Below are positions 1 to 36,255 of a stretch of 37,936 bases of DNA, in pieces. A model generated the notes under the pieces. That model searched no databases and was not told the origin of the DNA. It worked only from the letters and a program-made list of their open reading frames with translations. Each line of letters begins with the position of its first letter. Position 1 is the first letter of the stretch. Source of the DNA: Thermoproteota archaeon (GTDB taxonomy: Archaea; Korarchaeota; Korarchaeia; Korarchaeales; Korarchaeaceae). Made by a program: the position numbers and the translations under genes. The stretch is from assembly GCA_027491785.1 (NCBI GenBank), contig JAOZGJ010000017.1, positions 1 to 37,936 of the forward strand. The letters are read 5' to 3'.

Positions 1-530
1 GCTACTGGAAAGATGAGCTTCTCCTTATTCAAGTAAAATTTTCTGAAGGGAATTATGTTTAGGTATGAAAAAATTGATAAAATTATCGCAAATAGCATGA
101 CATATATAAGGGGTCCGATCCAAGCTGTCCAGTTCAAATTACCGCCTAATAACAGCGATCTAAGAGCTTCAGGATTTCTTGGGACTAGGAATTCAGGCAG
201 TATACCTTTTAATGGAAAATCTCTAGATAAGCCCGCAATAGCCCATGAGGGTAGTATGTATTGCCATCCTATAAATAAGACTGTAATAACCTCTATTGAT
301 CCAAATATAACACCCATCTCTCCTATTGATAAAGGATTCCCCTTTATAGTTGATATCGCATAAGAAATTGCTAGAACTACAAGCGCAGCCTCTCCCGTCC
401 AGCTATATCCTCCTGCACTCCTCATGGCAGTTTGAGCGAATAGCATAAATAAGCCAAATATGAGGGAGAGGACGATAGACCTAGCTGTAAAAGGGCTTTT
501 ACTTTCCACCTGATTTCCATTATTCTCCAA
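1..530 (-). CDS. DUF6785-like polytopic membrane protein, N-terminal part (cut by window edge)
   Basis: An open minus-strand frame begins at TTG 530-528 and runs off the window, giving about 176 residues. A GGTGG Shine-Dalgarno six bases upstream supports the TTG. I see hydrophobic segments at about residues 17-36, 48-57, 72-88 and 137-158, separated by a loop with aromatic and Pro residues. The stretch resembling WxxPLIYVMLFAIILSI followed by RKFYLNKEKLIFPV looks like the N-terminal half of DUF6785/OPT-like proteins, where a membrane segment is followed by a charged RxxWxxxERLxFPI-type motif. That family is thought to be transporter-like; no substrate can be read from this part. It lies 33 bases after the GAPDH-like gene on the same strand and may be the last gene of the pgk transcript. 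Family assignment is from recalled pattern only. Confidence 0.65.
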   Translation of the reverse strand, partial: MENNGNQVESKSPFTARSIVLSLIFGLFMLFAQTAMRSAGGYSWTGEAALVVLAISYAISTIKGNPLSIGEMGVIFGSIEVITVLFIGWQYILPSWAIAGLSRDFPLKGILPEFLVPRNPEALRSLLLGGNLNWTAWIGPLIYVMLFAIILSIFSYLNIIPFRKFYLNKEKLIFPV

Positions 531-563
531 AAGGAACCACCCTTTTTCTTTAATCACTTTAGT

Positions 564-1328
564 CTAAAGGATCAGTCCTCCTTTTATATTTAGGTGTTCA
601 TCCGTGATCTCACGAGAGATACTTCTCTTTAGCCCTTCGGATTCTCTCAGAGTATCTATCGTCTCGGGTAAGCTCACCATGAATCCAAGCAATGAGATAA
701 ATTCTACAGCCTTTCGATCTCTCCCCTTAACTTTCACAGAATTCATAAGTATGTTAATAGAGAAATTTGAATGAGGAGCAGCTATAGGAAGGAAGAAGCA
801 TAAGTCTTGGAGGTAAATGCCCTCTCCTGAAATAGCAAGAATTCTAGGGGCAGTAAGAAGAGAATCCTTAGCCCATTCTTGCTCTATCTCCTTAGAAAGA
901 TTTAATGAGATCTTGAATGTCTTGAAGTAGGGACAATATATGAGATCATTCCGTATCTCCTCAAGTGTTAAATCCTTTACAGGAAGAACAGTTGAGAGTC
1001 TCTCTAAAAGAACCTCATAGGGTTTAATGGTGATACCAGAACTTCCATACGAAACCTTGGTGGCTATCTGCTCATAATCATATTCCAAAAAAGCATCAGT
1101 CTTCTCAATGAAATCTTCTAAGAACCCAGCAACTTTTACTCCTCTCTGTTTGAAGAGATTTAGTCCTGATTTGCTACAATATACAGGTATTCTATGGGAA
1201 ATCGGTTTGGAGTATGGAGAAAGCTCATGACTATAGGCGCCAATTACTTGGATATCAGGCTGTTTAGTTAGGCTCTCCAATAATGGTATAGTATAGGGGT
1301 CATGTCCAACGATCCCCATCCTTATCAT
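564..1328 (-). CDS. Degenerate GAPDH-like protein, likely non-catalytic
   Basis: This 254-residue protein resembles archaeal (type II) glyceraldehyde-3-phosphate dehydrogenase at both ends. The N-terminus has the MIRMGIVG strand and later PVYCSKSGLNLF...GVKVAGFLEDFIEKTD, matching the family's first 80 residues. The C-terminus (SVKVKGR ... LPETIDTLR) matches the family's SINVRGN ... VPENIDAIR end. It is about 85 residues shorter than a normal GAPDH (about 340). The Rossmann glycine motif (NGYGTIGKR in the family) is GHDPYT here, and the catalytic SCNTTG motif is absent; Cys132 sits in an unrelated YCPYF context. NAD(P) binding and thiol catalysis are therefore probably lost. The ATG overlaps the pgk stop as ATGA, so the two are translationally coupled. 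Homology is likely; the present function is unknown, perhaps a PGK partner. Confidence 0.7.
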   Translation of the reverse strand: MIRMGIVGHDPYTIPLLESLTKQPDIQVIGAYSHELSPYSKPISHRIPVYCSKSGLNLFKQRGVKVAGFLEDFIEKTDAFLEYDYEQIATKVSYGSSGITIKPYEVLLERLSTVLPVKDLTLEEIRNDLIYCPYFKTFKISLNLSKEIEQEWAKDSLLTAPRILAISGEGIYLQDLCFFLPIAAPHSNFSINILMNSVKVKGRDRKAVEFISLLGFMVSLPETIDTLRESEGLKRSISREITDEHLNIKGGLIL

Positions 1329-2533
1329 AGAATTGTACTCTCCCTAAGAGCATCAACTGCAGGTAAAGGCAGGCCAGCTAGCCCGTATAGGACAGCTCCC
1401 CCAGCAGTATAAACCCTACTGCCCCTAGTTCCTACCATGCTAGCTGCAGTACTGAGGTGTCCTCCGCAAAGCACCGATTCCTTAGCATATTCCTCCATAG
1501 CCTTTACTATCTCCAAAGTACCCTTCCTTGACTCAGGCCTCTCAAATATCCCCATTGGACCATTTGCTACGGCAAGATCAGCACCTCTCAACCTTTCTTT
1601 ATATATCTCAATAGTTCCAGGGCCTATATCAACTATCTTGCTCTCTTCTGGTACAGCATAGACAGGTACGTCCTCAATCGTCCCATCTTTTAGTTTAACT
1701 ACAAAATCCACTGGGTAGAAAACTCTCCCAGTGCCCATTTCTAGGATCTCTCGCGCGGCAGGTAAGAGAAGATCTAGATCCCTGACCTTTCTTACCTCAC
1801 CATTAAGCTTATGCCCGGATGCTAATGCTACTATTATGCCAAGCAAGCCACCTGTTAGTACCTCAGCAGCTCTACCATTCCTTATAGCATGTACCATCAC
1901 CTTTAGCTTATCTGAGACCTTTGCTCCGCCCAGTATAAAGATTCTTTTCCCTTTTATCGCGTTTATTTCAGCCATTTCAGCTATCATCCTTTGCATATTC
2001 CTCCCAGCTGCTGCTGGCATTAGATATGGAAACGCCACTAACGATGGTTGGCTCCTATGGGCCGCCTGAAACGCATCGTTAATATACACATTAAAGAGGG
2101 GTGCTAGCCTCTGAACGAAATGAGTCTTTACCAGATCCCTTGGATCACCTTCGATATTTTCCTCGGCCATGAACCTCAGGTTTTCAAGCAATAAGACCTC
2201 TCCCTGACCTAACGCCTTTATTTGTTCCCTTACTTCTCTAGATATAACTCCATCGACATATTTCACTTCACTACCTATCTCCTTGGCCAATTCCTCTGCA
2301 TGAGGCTCTGTACTTATGAAATCGCTACTTCCAGGTCTGCCCTGATGCGTCCCTATTACAACAGAGGATCCCCTCTCCACAAGCTCCTTTAGAGTCTTTG
2401 CTGCCTGCTTTATTTTCTCTACACTCATTATTTCCCCATTATCTCCTATAGGAACGTTCATATCGGCTCTTAAGAAGACCTTTTTCCCATCTAGCGATAT
2501 ATCGTCGAGTGTGAGAATCTTCCTAGCTCTCAA
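1325..2533 (-). CDS. pgk: Phosphoglycerate kinase
   Basis: PGK interconverts 1,3-bisphosphoglycerate + ADP and 3-phosphoglycerate + ATP in the cytosol. Visible family motifs are GKKVFLRADMNVP near the N-terminus (substrate-binding Arg and Asp), GTHQGRPG, ENLRF, HRSQPS, GGAKVSDKL, NGPMGIFE and a C-terminal CGGHLSTA...TAGGAVL. Length of about 402 residues is usual for archaea. I place the start at TTG 2533 because a GGTGAT Shine-Dalgarno lies four bases upstream; a GTG at 2545 is in frame but sits on or before that element. A TATA-like A/T block upstream at 2577-2592 suggests its own promoter rather than read-through from the phosphorylase gene. The stop overlaps the start of the GAPDH-like gene, in the place where many archaea carry an active gap. 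Confidence 0.95.
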   Translation of the reverse strand: MRARKILTLDDISLDGKKVFLRADMNVPIGDNGEIMSVEKIKQAAKTLKELVERGSSVVIGTHQGRPGSSDFISTEPHAEELAKEIGSEVKYVDGVISREVREQIKALGQGEVLLLENLRFMAEENIEGDPRDLVKTHFVQRLAPLFNVYINDAFQAAHRSQPSLVAFPYLMPAAAGRNMQRMIAEMAEINAIKGKRIFILGGAKVSDKLKVMVHAIRNGRAAEVLTGGLLGIIVALASGHKLNGEVRKVRDLDLLLPAAREILEMGTGRVFYPVDFVVKLKDGTIEDVPVYAVPEESKIVDIGPGTIEIYKERLRGADLAVANGPMGIFERPESRKGTLEIVKAMEEYAKESVLCGGHLSTAASMVGTRGSRVYTAGGAVLYGLAGLPLPAVDALRESTIL

Positions 2534-2576
2534 GGATATCACCACTAGAATGCTCCGTCTAGTCTTCTGCTTAGGA

Positions 2577-2637: not shown

Positions 2638-3453
2638 CTAATGGTCTATGAACTCCGCAAGCGCATCTTTACATACGCAGGATCTCTCTCTCGGTATTAG
2701 AGTTATAGAACTAGCGAGAAGTCTTGATAAATCCTCTAGCTTTCTAGAAAATATATCTAGAACTTCTTGGTGAGTCAGTTTCTTTTCTCCACCGACCCCT
2801 GCCGCATAATTTGTGACTATAGATACACTAGCATAGCAAATTGCCAGCTCTCTAGCGAGAGCCGCTTCAGGACAGCCTGTCATGCCTACTATATCTCCTC
2901 CCATAATAGACATGGCCCTTATCTCGGCAGGTGTCTCAAATCTATTTCCCTCTGTACATACATATACGCCTTTATCTACAAGATGGATGCCTAGCTGATT
3001 GGCTGCGCTCATAAGAGCGGATCGTATTTCGGGGCAATACGTATATGGAGTCATGGAAATGTGCACTACTCCCTTAATCCTCCTTCCCCTAACGATGATC
3101 TCGGTTTTTCCATTATAGAATGTACCATCTCTACATTTAGTTAAATCTATGAAATCATGAGGTAAAACTATAGTACCTGGCATAAGTTCAGGGTTTATTG
3201 CTCCAACGGCATTACTTGCTATTATCCTTTCCACTCCTAGCATATTTAGCGCATATATATTAGCCTTATAATTCACTTTAAAGGGCGGGATTTCATGCTT
3301 CTCTCCATGTCTGGGAATGAAAGCTATCTCCTCGCCTCCGAACATCCCTAAGTAAACATTTGCAGGACCAAAAGGTGTGTCTATTTTCTTAAGTTTGGAG
3401 TTTTCCACGAGATGATACAAACCACTGCCTCCTATGATACCTATCCTGACCAT
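2638..3453 (-). CDS. mtnP: MTAP/PNP-family nucleoside phosphorylase
   Basis: This 271-residue protein belongs to the trimeric phosphorylase family that cleaves 5'-methylthioadenosine or purine nucleosides with phosphate (methionine and purine salvage). Motifs are GIIGGSGLY (phosphate site), IPRHGEKHEIPP, SNAVGAINP, GVYVCTEGNRFETPAEI and MTGCPEAALARE. The end carries Cys259-Val-Cys261, a CxC disulfide motif like that of the hyperthermophilic Sulfolobus MTAPII, with further Cys at 140, 194 and 206. The base-recognition loop reads TNYAAG (Asn215, Ala217) instead of the TDYD of typical MTA phosphorylases, so 6-oxopurine nucleosides (inosine, guanosine, methylthioinosine) are possible substrates. 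The gene is divergent from the thermosome gene and shares its promoter region. Family is certain; substrate is open. Confidence 0.9.
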   Translation of the reverse strand: MVRIGIIGGSGLYHLVENSKLKKIDTPFGPANVYLGMFGGEEIAFIPRHGEKHEIPPFKVNYKANIYALNMLGVERIIASNAVGAINPELMPGTIVLPHDFIDLTKCRDGTFYNGKTEIIVRGRRIKGVVHISMTPYTYCPEIRSALMSAANQLGIHLVDKGVYVCTEGNRFETPAEIRAMSIMGGDIVGMTGCPEAALARELAICYASVSIVTNYAAGVGGEKKLTHQEVLDIFSRKLEDLSRLLASSITLIPRERSCVCKDALAEFIDH

Positions 3454-20350: not shown

Positions 20351-20662
20351 CTATTCTAGGTTCAGGATCTCTAGGATCCTTGATTCACCTTCATCCATTA
20401 TAGCTGCAGCTGAGACAAAGAAAGGCTTCTTAAAAGCTCTTCCCATATCTATAGATTTGCCTGGGTATTGATAGAGGGGCACACCAGCAACCTTAGCTAG
20501 ATACTCTATCTCCATCTTGATGCTTTCCGGTGCATTGCTGGCTACTATTATGAGCTTTGGATTATTGCCAGATTTCAGCTGTTTTATTACTTTTTTAGCT
20601 CCTAACAATATGCTTCCGGATTTCAAAGCGAGATAAAGTTCGGGATCTATTTCACTGCTCAT
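20351..20662 (-). CDS. rpl30e: 50S ribosomal protein L30e (eL30)
   Basis: The 103-residue protein has the L7Ae/L30e RNA-binding fold: ALKSGSILLGAKKVIKQLKSG, PKLIIVASNAPESIKMEIEYLAKVAGVPLYQYPG and SIDMGRAFKKPFFVSAAAIMDEGES. eL30 binds kink-turns in rRNA. I start at ATG 20662 with AGGGTGA eight bases upstream; an in-frame ATG at 20683 lies deeper in rpoA without a ribosome-binding site. It overlaps the rpoA end by 11 bases. Placement between the RNA polymerase genes and nusA is the standard archaeal order. Confidence 0.94.
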   Translation of the reverse strand: MSSEIDPELYLALKSGSILLGAKKVIKQLKSGNNPKLIIVASNAPESIKMEIEYLAKVAGVPLYQYPGKSIDMGRAFKKPFFVSAAAIMDEGESRILEILNLE

Positions 20663-23600
20663 CGGTTCCTTCACCCTTACCATAATGCTTACTCAGGTCC
20701 CACCTAACGGAGACCCTTCCAGTTCCTATAGGTGGGGTCTGACCCATTATTAATGCATCTAATGGACCAGCTATAGGATTATCCTCACCGCGCCTAGCGG
20801 TATTTAATATGACATGGGTGGTCCATTCGAATGCCATCTTGCTGAGGGGAGTTTTCATTTCACTGAAGAATCCAGAAGATACACCTGCTGCTTGAAGTCT
20901 TATGGCCTCTATGGTTCCGGAGAACGTCATAGTATCTGCGATCAGAGATATGTACCTCTTGTCCACTTCAAGTCCCTGCTCGTCCAAGATCCTAGCTAGC
21001 TCCTTATATATACAATTTCTGGCGGCTTCTATTCCCAGAACCTTCTCTATCTCCTTACAATCATTAGTTATCGTCTTAGATACATCAACACAATCTAGGT
21101 TTAGCACTTCCCTTAGATTGGAACCGGAAGTCCTTACGACATACTCCTTCTTTCCATCGACCTCTACTGTTTCTATCCACGCCCTCTTTATGCCTTTCAT
21201 TCCAGATACGAGCTTGTCTAACACCCTATAAGACCACGATCTTAGAGTTTGGAGGGGTTTTTCTCTTTTAGCTGCTTCGAATAACTCTACAACGATGTTA
21301 TCTCCTTCGATGCTGACCTCTCCCTTCATGTTCTTGACTGCGCTCCTAATGTAGCCAACGAACTTATCCATCGTTATCAAATTTGTATTGAGGGCCTTCA
21401 TATCAGGCTTCAGAATGAGCCTGTAACCGAAGTTATCTATCGCGTATTCCTCTATTAGATCCCTAACTCTAAGCTCCCTTATACTTCTGATAACCTTTCT
21501 CACCTTCATCTCATCATCCATACATTCTGGTTTGAGATGTATCTCCATGGTGGGCGTGCTCGTTGAGGCATAGAATACCAGTTCCTTAAATCTCTCCACT
21601 CCATGGGTTACATCAAGGGCGAGGAGTCCTGGAGCATGGAAAGTCCTTAGAACCATCTGGGTTGTCGGTTCAGCTATGCTTTGGGCACTTATGAGGCCTA
21701 TAGGAGTTAATACCTCCACTTTAGCATTATCAAAACCCTCTTTCAGATCTTCTATTATCTTCTGAAGTTCTGGTTCCCTAGGTTTGGCTTTATATATCTT
21801 ATCAGCCAGACTTAACGGTAAACCAGCTTTCCTTAATGCCTCCTCTATCCTAGCTTTGGAGATCCCTCTCTTCCTAGCATTCTTCACATGCTTTTCTAGG
21901 ATCATCTCCACGTTGACTGGTTCGCCCCTGAAAAGCTTAGTTGGATCGAACCCATCCCCTCCAAATCTGAATTGGATTATATGACCCATAGAGTCTCTGA
22001 CGGTTTCATCGTATGATACATAAACGTCTTTAAGAGAATTGGCCACTCTTCTATAGAAATAGCCACTATCTTCTGTTCTCCTTCCCTTATCTATGAGAGA
22101 CTCTCTACTAGACATTGCATGGAAGATGAATTCCGCCGGATTCAGTCCCTTCATATAGCTATTTCTTACAAACCCCCTTGCCTCAGGACTTAGATCTCCT
22201 CTTTCGAAGTATGAGAGGACCCTGTCTCTATATCCCTTCCTAGGTCTTCCGCTGGTTAGAACGAATCCGATCCTAGTCTTGATCTTTTGCTGACCCACTT
22301 GGCCCATTATCTGGGAGAGGTTGGCTATTGATCCCCTAGCACCAGTCTTAGCCATCACAGAGACATTGGATTTGGGATCAACGTACTTAGCCACTATATC
22401 GCTCACTTTACTCCAGAAACTATCTATTGTCTGGACTATATCAAACTCAAGCATTTGCTCTTCTCTCATTAGGCGAAGTAGCTCTTCCTTTGTTCTATAT
22501 ACGGCCGCCTTCCTTGTGATTGGTCTGCTTTCAATGATCTTCCTCACTTCCTCCTCAAGCTTTGAGTATATACCATCTATCTCCTTGTACGCTTCCTTAG
22601 GCATCATAAGCTCTTTAGGTGAGGTAGTGATGCCATACAGCAATACTTCCTTGGCCGCTATCTTAAGGAGCTTATTCAGGAAATCTGCTGCTACATCACC
22701 CCCATAATCCCTGATTAGCACGTCTATTATGGTGAGCTTTCCTTTGACGAGAGTTCCAACTATGTCGTCATCCAATACTCCAGACAATAGCTGACCATTT
22801 CTTATCAGGACATATCCATCGTTAGGGCATGATGGATCGACACATTCAGCACCCTTAGCCAGTTTAGAAACGGATTCGAAGTTCAAGTCCTCAGGCAAGA
22901 GGACAGATATGAGCTGCTTCCCTGTCCATAACTCCTTCGGTTTCTTTATTGCTGGTTCGGGTAGCTTCGTTATCTCTGCCCTAGAGAGGATCCTAGTTGC
23001 CTCTGATTTTGTGAAAAGGGAATCCTTCTTTGTTATCATATAAAGGACGGTAATGAGATCCTGTCTCGCTCCTACTATGGATCCTCCCGTTCTAGGCGAG
23101 AGCATGTTATTCTTGACGCCCATTAACTCCTTAGCTTCTATAGACCCGTCTAACAGCTGAGGAGCATGTAAATTCATCTCATCTCCATCAAAATCTGCAT
23201 TATATGGAACACAAACTGCTGGATGGAGCCTGAAAGTAGCCCCCGGTAGTACCTTCACCCTATGGCCAAGCATAGATAGCTTATGGAGGGACGGCTGCCT
23301 GTTGAATATGACATAATCTCCGTCCATAAGGTGCCTTTCTACTACATCGCCCGGCTCGAGCTGCTCAGCTATCTCCTTCAAAGCATCTTTTCCCTTTCTC
23401 TGTATTATTTTTAGGCTTATGGGAGTTATCCCGCCTTTCCTTACCGTATTAGCTCCAGGATATTCATCAGGTCCTCTCATGACTAGCTCCTTTAACTTCT
23501 CTATGTTATTCTCGTTCACATACTCCGGAACTGTGAGCACCATGGCTATCTCGACTGGTACACCAACTTCATCTATGTCTATCATAGGATCGGGAGAAAT

Positions 23601-24629
23601 TACAGTCCTACTGGAGAAATTAACCCTCTTTCCTATCAAATTCTTCCTAAGTCTTCCCTCCTTACCGCCCAGCCTCTGGAACAAGGACTTAAGAGGTCTC
23701 CTCGTACCTTTCTGAGTAGCTACAGGCATGCTAGCAGCAGCATTATTGAAAAATACGCTAACCCAGTATTGCAGTAGGTCCCATTCGCTCTCTACCATGC
23801 TACTGGGAGCTCCAAGCCTTTTTGAGTTGTGTAGCTTCCTATTCACCTTTAGTATCTCTACTAAAATGTGAGTTAGATCATCCTCAGACCTCTCACCAGT
23901 CTCTAAATATATTGAGGGCCTAACAGGAAGCGGAGGTACCAAGAGAACTGTAAGTACCGTCCATTCAGGTCTGGCCCTCTCTGGATTAAATCCTATTAGG
24001 AGAGAATCATCGTCACTTACCCTCTCAAGTATATCTCTTATCTCAGTCGGCCAGAGCCTCCTAGGTTCAGGTTCCCTCACTATAAATTTGTATACCTCTT
24101 CTAGCTCAACTTTCTGTATATCAGCACCGCAGTGAGGGCATTTCCTATGCTTCTTAACGTACTTCTTCACCTCTTCCCTGACTTCCCTGACAAGACTATC
24201 ATCTATTTTCTTATCAGGATTCTTAGCTGCAGCTTCCTTAGCTCTAGCTATAAACTCGGATCTAACGTCTTCAGGTAAGAGAACCTTTCCACACTTATGG
24301 CATACGGTATTCAAGGCATCCTTCAGTCTCTTGACATATCCTATATGGACTACAGGCATGGCTAGCTCTACCCTACCAAAGTGGCCAGGACAATTCTTTG
24401 GATAGTTACCACAAATTGGACACCTCTTCCTGGGATTTATGGTTCCTAGCCTTGGATCTAGAACACCTCCTTGTATTGGGAGACCGCCTTCATCGTAGGC
24501 CGTTGGCTCTGTTATCTCTATAAAGCCTATCCTCCTTGCGTCCGATGGCGATATTAGGCCAAACATGACCCTCCTTAAACTGTAGGGAATGGCTTCCTCG
24601 TCTCTAACAGGCTCCCATATAAGCGCCAT
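20652..24629 (-). CDS. rpoA: DNA-directed RNA polymerase subunit A, unsplit (Rpo1N + Rpo1C)
   Basis: This 1325-residue chain joins the regions that most Euryarchaeota and Crenarchaeota encode as separate A' and A''. The N-terminal clamp has the Zn motif CPICGNYPKNCPGHFG and a second site (CHKCGKVL ... CPHCGA). The catalytic loop NADFDGDEMN at about residue 477 carries the three Mg-binding Asp residues. The bridge helix region at about 840 reads HAMSSRESLIDKGRRTEDSGYFYRR, against a near-universal HAMGGREGLxDTAVxTAxxGYxxRR. The trigger-loop base at about 983 reads AQSIAEPTTQMVLRTFH, against AQSIGEPxTQMxxxTFH; the key Leu, Arg and His remain. The frame is intact and all neighbours are standard, so this is the cell's working subunit. 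The start has GGGGATGATC upstream; RpoB ends 21 bases before it. Confidence 0.97.
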   Translation of the reverse strand: MALIWEPVRDEEAIPYSLRRVMFGLISPSDARRIGFIEITEPTAYDEGGLPIQGGVLDPRLGTINPRKRCPICGNYPKNCPGHFGRVELAMPVVHIGYVKRLKDALNTVCHKCGKVLLPEDVRSEFIARAKEAAAKNPDKKIDDSLVREVREEVKKYVKKHRKCPHCGADIQKVELEEVYKFIVREPEPRRLWPTEIRDILERVSDDDSLLIGFNPERARPEWTVLTVLLVPPLPVRPSIYLETGERSEDDLTHILVEILKVNRKLHNSKRLGAPSSMVESEWDLLQYWVSVFFNNAAASMPVATQKGTRRPLKSLFQRLGGKEGRLRKNLIGKRVNFSSRTVISPDPMIDIDEVGVPVEIAMVLTVPEYVNENNIEKLKELVMRGPDEYPGANTVRKGGITPISLKIIQRKGKDALKEIAEQLEPGDVVERHLMDGDYVIFNRQPSLHKLSMLGHRVKVLPGATFRLHPAVCVPYNADFDGDEMNLHAPQLLDGSIEAKELMGVKNNMLSPRTGGSIVGARQDLITVLYMITKKDSLFTKSEATRILSRAEITKLPEPAIKKPKELWTGKQLISVLLPEDLNFESVSKLAKGAECVDPSCPNDGYVLIRNGQLLSGVLDDDIVGTLVKGKLTIIDVLIRDYGGDVAADFLNKLLKIAAKEVLLYGITTSPKELMMPKEAYKEIDGIYSKLEEEVRKIIESRPITRKAAVYRTKEELLRLMREEQMLEFDIVQTIDSFWSKVSDIVAKYVDPKSNVSVMAKTGARGSIANLSQIMGQVGQQKIKTRIGFVLTSGRPRKGYRDRVLSYFERGDLSPEARGFVRNSYMKGLNPAEFIFHAMSSRESLIDKGRRTEDSGYFYRRVANSLKDVYVSYDETVRDSMGHIIQFRFGGDGFDPTKLFRGEPVNVEMILEKHVKNARKRGISKARIEEALRKAGLPLSLADKIYKAKPREPELQKIIEDLKEGFDNAKVEVLTPIGLISAQSIAEPTTQMVLRTFHAPGLLALDVTHGVERFKELVFYASTSTPTMEIHLKPECMDDEMKVRKVIRSIRELRVRDLIEEYAIDNFGYRLILKPDMKALNTNLITMDKFVGYIRSAVKNMKGEVSIEGDNIVVELFEAAKREKPLQTLRSWSYRVLDKLVSGMKGIKRAWIETVEVDGKKEYVVRTSGSNLREVLNLDCVDVSKTITNDCKEIEKVLGIEAARNCIYKELARILDEQGLEVDKRYISLIADTMTFSGTIEAIRLQAAGVSSGFFSEMKTPLSKMAFEWTTHVILNTARRGEDNPIAGPLDALIMGQTPPIGTGRVSVRWDLSKHYGKGEGTDEQ

Positions 24630-35103: not shown

Positions 35104-36255
35104 ATGAGGGTTTTGGAGAATCTCTTCAGCTCCTATTATAGGGCGATGTCCAAGACAATATACGTCCCGGAGGTTCCTAGGAGAGAATTCATGTTCAGGG
35201 GGTTCGATGGTAAGGTAAGGAGGCATATCTCCTTCTTTAATCTGGGAGATCTGAGGAGGTATCTCATATCAGAGCCTCCTCTTCATGCCTATTATTCAGT
35301 TTCCCTTTACAGGAATCCCACAGCTCCCATGGAGGAGAAGGGACCTATAAAGGCAGACCTCTTCTTCGATATAGACTCAACGGATTTACGCGATGAGGAA
35401 TGCGAGAAGGACTCCATATGGAGATGCAAAGAATGCGGATATGTTGGGAAGGGAATAAAACCGGAGAGATGTCCCAAGTGCGGATCTGAGAGGTTAGAGG
35501 TGAATCACTGGCTCAATGAGAGATGCATCTCCCTTGCGAAACACGAGGTTGAGAAGTTGGTGGGCATGTTAAACGAGGATTTCGGCGTAGATTTCGCTCA
35601 TATATCAATCTCCTATACTGGTAATAGGGGCTTCCACGTCAGGGTCACAGAGGGATCGCTTACCTCCCTAGGAAAGAACGAGAGAAGGGAAATTTCCTTC
35701 TATATAATGGGAAAGGGGCTCGATCCCTCAAGCCACCTGATAGTAAATGAAGGGAAGGTAGCGGTATCGACGGAGAGCAAGGTCATGAAGAGAGCGGTGG
35801 GCTTCCTACTTAGCAATCCTTCCACCTTCGGAGGGATAAGCGGTAAGATTCTGGATGCCCTCTCTGGTAAACCAGTCAGGCTAAGCTCTAGGGAGGTCAG
35901 TCATATGATGGACCTGCTGAAAAGATCAGCCTTACTCTCTGGAGCGAAGATAGATTGGATGGTGACCATGGACACGGGGAGGCTCACTAGGATACCCAAC
36001 AGTTTACACGGGAAGACCGGTTTCAGGGCATTAAGTCTTACACTTGACGATTACAGGGTATTCAACCCGTTTGAGGATTCCGTAGGGTTACCTGCCCATC
36101 CTGAAATCGAAGTAGAGGCCACTATGAATGTTCCCTCTTTTAACTTAAAGGGGGAAAAATTCGGTCCCTACTCACCTGGAGAGAGGATAAAATTGCCAGG
36201 GTTTGCTGCTACTTTTCTCATACTGAGGGGGAGAGCTAAGCTAGTGGGCGATTAA
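35104..36255 (+). CDS. priS: DNA primase small (catalytic) subunit PriS
   Basis: PriS makes the RNA primers for replication. The 383-residue protein has the catalytic ADLFFDIDSTD (Asp89 and Asp91), a Zn knuckle inserted just after it with Cys108, Cys111, Cys123 and Cys126, the nucleotide-binding SYTGNRGFHVRV, and TMDTGRLTRIPNSLHGKTGF with the third acidic residue and conserved Arg and His. The usual order of archaeal primases is preserved, with all key residues. It lies one base after PriL and ends before an A/T-rich element that probably starts the GINS transcript and may end this one (T run at 36261-36266). Confidence 0.95.
   Translation: MRVLENLFSSYYRAMSKTIYVPEVPRREFMFRGFDGKVRRHISFFNLGDLRRYLISEPPLHAYYSVSLYRNPTAPMEEKGPIKADLFFDIDSTDLRDEECEKDSIWRCKECGYVGKGIKPERCPKCGSERLEVNHWLNERCISLAKHEVEKLVGMLNEDFGVDFAHISISYTGNRGFHVRVTEGSLTSLGKNERREISFYIMGKGLDPSSHLIVNEGKVAVSTESKVMKRAVGFLLSNPSTFGGISGKILDALSGKPVRLSSREVSHMMDLLKRSALLSGAKIDWMVTMDTGRLTRIPNSLHGKTGFRALSLTLDDYRVFNPFEDSVGLPAHPEIEVEATMNVPSFNLKGEKFGPYSPGERIKLPGFAATFLILRGRAKLVGD

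Follow-up and report, generated by a model that had tools for sequence, protein, structure and literature searches.

The closest described relatives of the gene considered here are the archaeal type II GAPDHs (TIGR01546/NF003251; 1b7g, 2czc, and 1cf2), which at full length are proteins of about 335–345 aa. The reduced protein shares with them common descent, an operon place conserved in sister genera, the predicted overall fold, and a C-terminal LPExID..RES..TDxxLxI segment. It differs from them, however, in being about 85 residues shorter, in having lost the NAD loop, SCNTTG, and the Arg/His set, and in scoring far under the family cut-off (28.7 bits versus 185 for NF003251). A second comparison can be made with regulatory and scaffold pseudoenzymes, where likewise the fold is kept, the catalytic motifs are lost, and the protein is selected and encoded together with a pathway partner (PMC10211241), although for the reduced GAPDH that partner is only putative. 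Pseudoenzymes commonly serve as allosteric partners or scaffolds (reviewed in PMC10211241), and a physical association of GAPDH with phosphoglycerate kinase (PGK) has been reported in human erythrocytes, as has coupled GAPDH/PGK function in archaea (reviewed in PMC7729029). In a limited search of the literature, no archaeal GAPDH pseudoenzyme and no relevant work on the GAPDH of Korarchaeum was found.

The gene lies in the window, i.e., the whole stretch of 37,936 nucleotides that was analyzed, which very probably derives from a member of Korarchaeum, a genus of hot springs and deep-sea vents. An initial annotation had described an intact frame of 254 codons sharing an ATGA overlap with pgk, and both observations hold: the ORF at 564–1328 (minus strand) starts with ATG, contains no internal stops, and begins within the end of pgk, itself an ordinary and intact enzyme gene. 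The features of the locus are:

1 to 563, minus strand: start of a membrane protein, a DUF6785/OPT-like transporter, downstream of the reduced GAPDH gene and truncated by the window edge
564 to 1328, minus strand: reduced type II GAPDH homologue of 254 aa, predicted to be catalytically dead, with its stop codon at 564–566
1293 to 1307, minus strand: GHDPY, codons 8–12, replacing the GxGTIG dinucleotide-binding loop, with P11 invariant in 15 orthologues
1325 to 1328, minus strand: ATGA overlap, comprising the last base of the pgk CTA codon, the TGA stop, and the ATG of the reduced GAPDH
1325 to 2545, minus strand: phosphoglycerate kinase gene pgk, intact, 406 aa (Pfam PGK, E=1.6e-96)
2638 to 3453, minus strand: S-methyl-5′-thioadenosine phosphorylase (MTAP), an upstream neighbor of pgk conserved throughout the family

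Elsewhere, the window encodes an RNA polymerase largest subunit as one unsplit ORF with Rpb1 domains 1–5 (20652–24629, minus strand), adjoining an unsplit Rpb2 homologue. On the plus strand, an overlapping tandem pair of membrane proteins with O_anti_polymase matches (PF01901; 6146–7465 and 7449–8609) lies downstream of both a thermosome gene and an ORF with weak TrmB likeness, and a DNA primase small subunit (35104–36255) contains a rubredoxin/zinc-ribbon-like insert with weak matches to PF21349 and PF23458.

The likeness of both protein ends to archaeal GAPDH, as first noted from the sequence, was borne out by profile searches. The NCBIfam model for type II GAPDH matched residues 17–84 (NF003251; E=6.7e-07), and phmmer aligned 1b7g with residues 3–82 and, weakly, with residues 143–252 (E=2.2e-06), while the score against TIGR01546 was 25.8 bits versus a cut-off of 232.9. 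By single-sequence searches, type II GAPDH was recognized in the N-terminal 80 residues only, whereas a profile of the 15 orthologues compared with 17 full-length archaeal GAPDHs gave a probability of 98.4% across 249 columns in an alignment anchored at either end. The shortfall, initially put at about 85 residues, amounts to about 85–90 (254 aa versus about 340 aa). Within the middle of the protein (residues about 85–131), homology to GAPDH is undetectable by sequence alone, and residues 81–150 taken by themselves yielded no profile homology to GAPDH, which suggests that part of this region was shrunk or substituted instead of simply being cut out and leaves, in some 50 residues, room for a new active site. 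A possible SCNTTG relic, SYGSSG at residues 93–98, was dropped as a candidate, as the middle alone gave no profile match and MAFFT set SCNTTG against a gap. Searches of the reduced protein by Pfam, NCBIfam, and phmmer found no recognizable family other than GAPDH, and in a tree the reduced proteins group, on a long branch, with the family’s own GAPDHs, though with a support of no more than 74/72. We conclude that the ORF at 564–1328 encodes a type II (archaeal) GAPDH in reduced form.

Structure prediction, which had been proposed as a check on this ancestry, points the same way. AlphaFold models of the window protein (pLDDT 92.7, pTM 0.88) and of an orthologue about 37% identical to it (pLDDT 91.8, pTM 0.89) both have archaeal type II GAPDHs as their top PDB matches, with TM scores by query of 0.78 and 0.79, ahead of the class I GAPDHs. 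As modeled, the GAPDH fold is shrunken, not replaced.

An alignment of the 15 orthologues with the 17 full-length enzymes shows what the shrinkage removed. The full-length enzymes share 54 invariant positions; of these, the reduced proteins retain 12 (including G8, D25, G30, G68, D78, R162, P221, D225, R228, S238, and T242), have lost 19 by deletion, and carry other residues at 23. The two motifs first reported as lost have different fates: SCNTTG, with its nucleophilic Cys, falls within a deleted stretch, and the glycine loop is replaced. The deleted stretches thus contain S-C-N-T-T, the substrate-phosphate Arg pair R166/R167, and H191/H192, among others, and the replaced positions include K34, Q298-E299, the catalytic H217 (now K/R), and GxGTIG, which reads G[HQ]xP[YH]T/A across the orthologues (GHDPYT in the window protein) with an invariant Pro. 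Meanwhile, new invariants have appeared, including P11, C51-S52, E82-Y83, C132-P133, and C177, and altogether 47 columns are invariant in the 15 sequences, whose identity goes down to 37%. The three invariant cysteines and the GxxP/EY motifs are absent from GAPDH, and an N-terminal half-Rossmann pocket is marked by the invariant or near-invariant G8-x-x-P11, H34, S40, C51-S52, and E82-Y83.

It could be argued that the product is still an active, minimal GAPDH or some other oxidoreductase with rearranged catalytic residues, given that the invariant C132-P133 aligns near V-P-T-T, a conserved segment flanking the active site. Such retained activity is, however, very improbable: the NAD loop is lost, with an invariant Pro inside the glycine loop, the second half of the Rossmann domain is undetectable, SCNTTG is gone together with the Arg and His pairs, and the activity is supplied by a full class I GAPDH (see below). 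We infer that the reduced protein no longer performs GAPDH chemistry.

The genus is represented by 16 genomes, and 15 of them carry clear orthologues of 250–254 aa, 37–74% identical and all with open frames. All but one of the orthologues overlap pgk by ATGA (14/15), and the remaining one abuts it. The sixteenth genome (G002) has, at the same spot and with the same ATGA overlap, a strongly diverged ORF of 209 aa (L101:2703-3332) scoring 15.9 bits against the family, where the maximum of 200 shuffles was 6.4. Judging by this sequence match, it is a further eroded orthologue, so that every genome of the genus (16/16) possesses an ORF of this kind behind pgk. Outside the genus, the short form was found neither in searches of 101 genomes and of 394 archaeal genomes nor in a scan of GTDB contigs, and the non-genus matches listed were full-length GAPDHs, except for one spurious 36-residue match with an internal stop.

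The initial annotation had further argued that the gene is maintained, with frame decay in sister genomes as the alternative. For close pairs (dS 0.2–0.9), the reduced gap gene has a pairwise Nei–Gojobori dN/dS of 0.06–0.12, as compared to 0.01–0.06 for pgk in the same genomes, and a random-mutation control at the observed dS leads one to expect 3–12 stops per copy, when none was observed in 15 copies. Low dN/dS and open frames together indicate a gene under selection, and a pseudogene reading was rejected on the basis of dN/dS and the random-mutation control. A subtler form of decay is also conceivable, in which an idle protein is slowly eroding and its frame persists only because the operon’s translation or expression would suffer without it. 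The reduced protein does evolve at about five times the rate of PGK, and this, together with the further erosion in G002, suggests that it may be dispensable. Still, a slowly decaying remnant is a most unlikely account, being largely refuted by the dN/dS values and opposed by the lack of any frameshift or stop in 15 genomes, by compact models of high confidence for two distant orthologues, and by specific, newly conserved motifs.

The genomic neighborhood identifies the gene’s ancestral state. Within the genus, all 16 genomes lack a full-length type II GAPDH, whereas all eight family genomes from other genera have one directly behind pgk. The gene order in a sister genus is MTAP-pgk-gap-phosphomannomutase, and that of the window’s genus is MTAP-pgk-reduced gap-membrane transporter-phosphomannomutase; from this shared order it follows that the reduced gene is the in-place orthologue of the intact gap. 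The intervening transporter is a 667-aa DUF6785/OPT-like membrane protein (L120:5787-7787; its start is at window 1–563, minus strand), and since gap adjoins phosphomannomutase in the sister genus, its insertion is assigned to the window’s genus. The reduced gene encodes a lineage-specific type II GAPDH pseudoenzyme, whose ancestral state survives in the sister genera. By the same token, the adjacency of pgk and gap is ancestral and was established with a full-length enzyme, and taken by itself it speaks less strongly for a partnership with PGK than the initial annotation had supposed.

The initial annotation had supposed a takeover of glycolytic oxidation by another enzyme, for instance ferredoxin-dependent GAPOR, to be sought alongside GAPN or a second intact gap. 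The takeover stands, and so does the second gap, in the form of a class I GAPDH:

G000:C36:1648-2655 (L152:1645-2655), minus strand: class I GAPDH of the window’s genome, 336 aa, 418 bits versus a cut-off of 367

This bacterial-type enzyme (PF02800/TIGR01534) is found intact in all but two of the genus’s 16 genomes (14/16), these two being 63% and 70% complete, and its copies are 72–90% identical. Only a distant relative of the reduced protein, it belongs to another class and occupies another locus, has both GFGRIG and SCTTN intact in the window’s genome, and supplies the reaction that the reduced protein lost. No class I GAPDH was found in the eight genomes of sister genera, making it likely that the genus acquired the gene at its base. 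Contamination is ruled out as an explanation by the genome G010, a single contig carrying both the reduced gap and the class I GAPDH. A phosphorylating class I enzyme also explains the conservation of PGK, which needs 1,3-bisphosphoglycerate (1,3-BPG), and displacement of the type II by the class I GAPDH in this genus is highly likely. The class I gene lies between genes for a VCP-like AAA ATPase and a protein resembling leucyl-tRNA synthetase, an arrangement shared with G010. Class I GAPDH homologues with one to three in-frame stops occur in other archaea (G120:C90:42607-43623, G260:C26:134075-135073, and G264:C51:2531-3541) and represent either broken copies or a recoded stop.

The part of the proposal that did not stand is GAPOR. 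Several aldehyde:ferredoxin oxidoreductases (AFORs) are encoded per genome, which lends some initial appeal to replacement by GAPOR, but none of the genus’s genomes encodes a protein passing the GAPOR cut-off (NF040818; best score 53 bits versus 1300, with a Pyrococcus-type control at 1393), and in a tree the AFOR proteins of the genus do not group with GAPOR. Leaving aside possible assembly gaps, these searches refute a takeover by GAPOR. As for GAPN, the aldehyde dehydrogenase superfamily to which it belongs (PF00171) is patchy in the genus and absent from the window’s own genome, and a GAPN/ALDH replacement was set aside on that ground and as unnecessary given the class I GAPDH. With either enzyme, moreover, PGK would be conserved though useless without 1,3-BPG, and replacement by GAPOR or GAPN is hardly credible. 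One AFOR gene of the genus, at G013:C2:10928-11516, is in pieces with two TGA codons and is probably a broken copy.

Taken together, the homology, the predicted fold, the lost catalytic residues, the genus-wide conservation, the selection, and the displacement argue with great confidence that the product is a maintained, GAPDH-derived pseudoenzyme, displaced in place. The history begins with a type II gap in an ancestral MTAP-pgk-gap operon, from which the present gene descended without leaving its place. In the ancestor of the genus, the reaction most likely passed to a bacterial-type class I GAPDH, after which the old protein shed about 85 residues along with its Cys motif, substrate-phosphate Arg pair, catalytic His, and NAD(P) glycine loop, while a folded core was retained under purifying selection at 250–254 aa and translated in step with PGK. 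Overall, the best explanation, to which we assign a probability of roughly 0.6, is that of a displaced gap kept as a non-catalytic protein, most likely as a partner of PGK.

What such a partner might do can be stated only tentatively. The reduced protein could pair with PGK, and perhaps also with the new class I GAPDH, in a non-catalytic role that holds or tunes a complex handing over 1,3-BPG, possibly with a ligand bound at the remodeled N-terminal half-Rossmann pocket. A role as PGK partner or metabolite-binding regulator is a best guess and unproven, because the adjacency to pgk was inherited, and a specific PGK-linked role is accordingly putative. Its most explicit form, in which a non-catalytic subunit that senses a ligand and is co-translated with PGK controls the hand-over of 1,3-BPG from the imported GAPDH to the native PGK, is conceivable and somewhat unlikely. 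About as likely as the PGK-linked role is a new function unrelated to PGK, where the half-Rossmann pocket and C51, C132, and C177 would make up a new site for a ligand, a metal, or redox chemistry, with the gene staying behind pgk by inherited synteny only. The many columns invariant across such divergent orthologues, including the three cysteines and the non-GAPDH motifs, would suit this neofunctionalization, as would the ancestral pgk-gap adjacency; against it, no family but GAPDH is recognizable in the protein, and the operon place and tight overlap with pgk are retained in every species.

At a practical level, the finding corrects an annotation: the weak GAPDH match at this locus is not to be taken as the GAPDH of the genus. 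In broader terms, displaced enzymes normally end in gene loss, and here one has been kept, shrunken and conserved beside its pathway partner genus-wide. With an intact gap at the same locus in sister genera, the family offers a rare before-and-after natural experiment on the origin of a pseudoenzyme from an enzyme of core metabolism.
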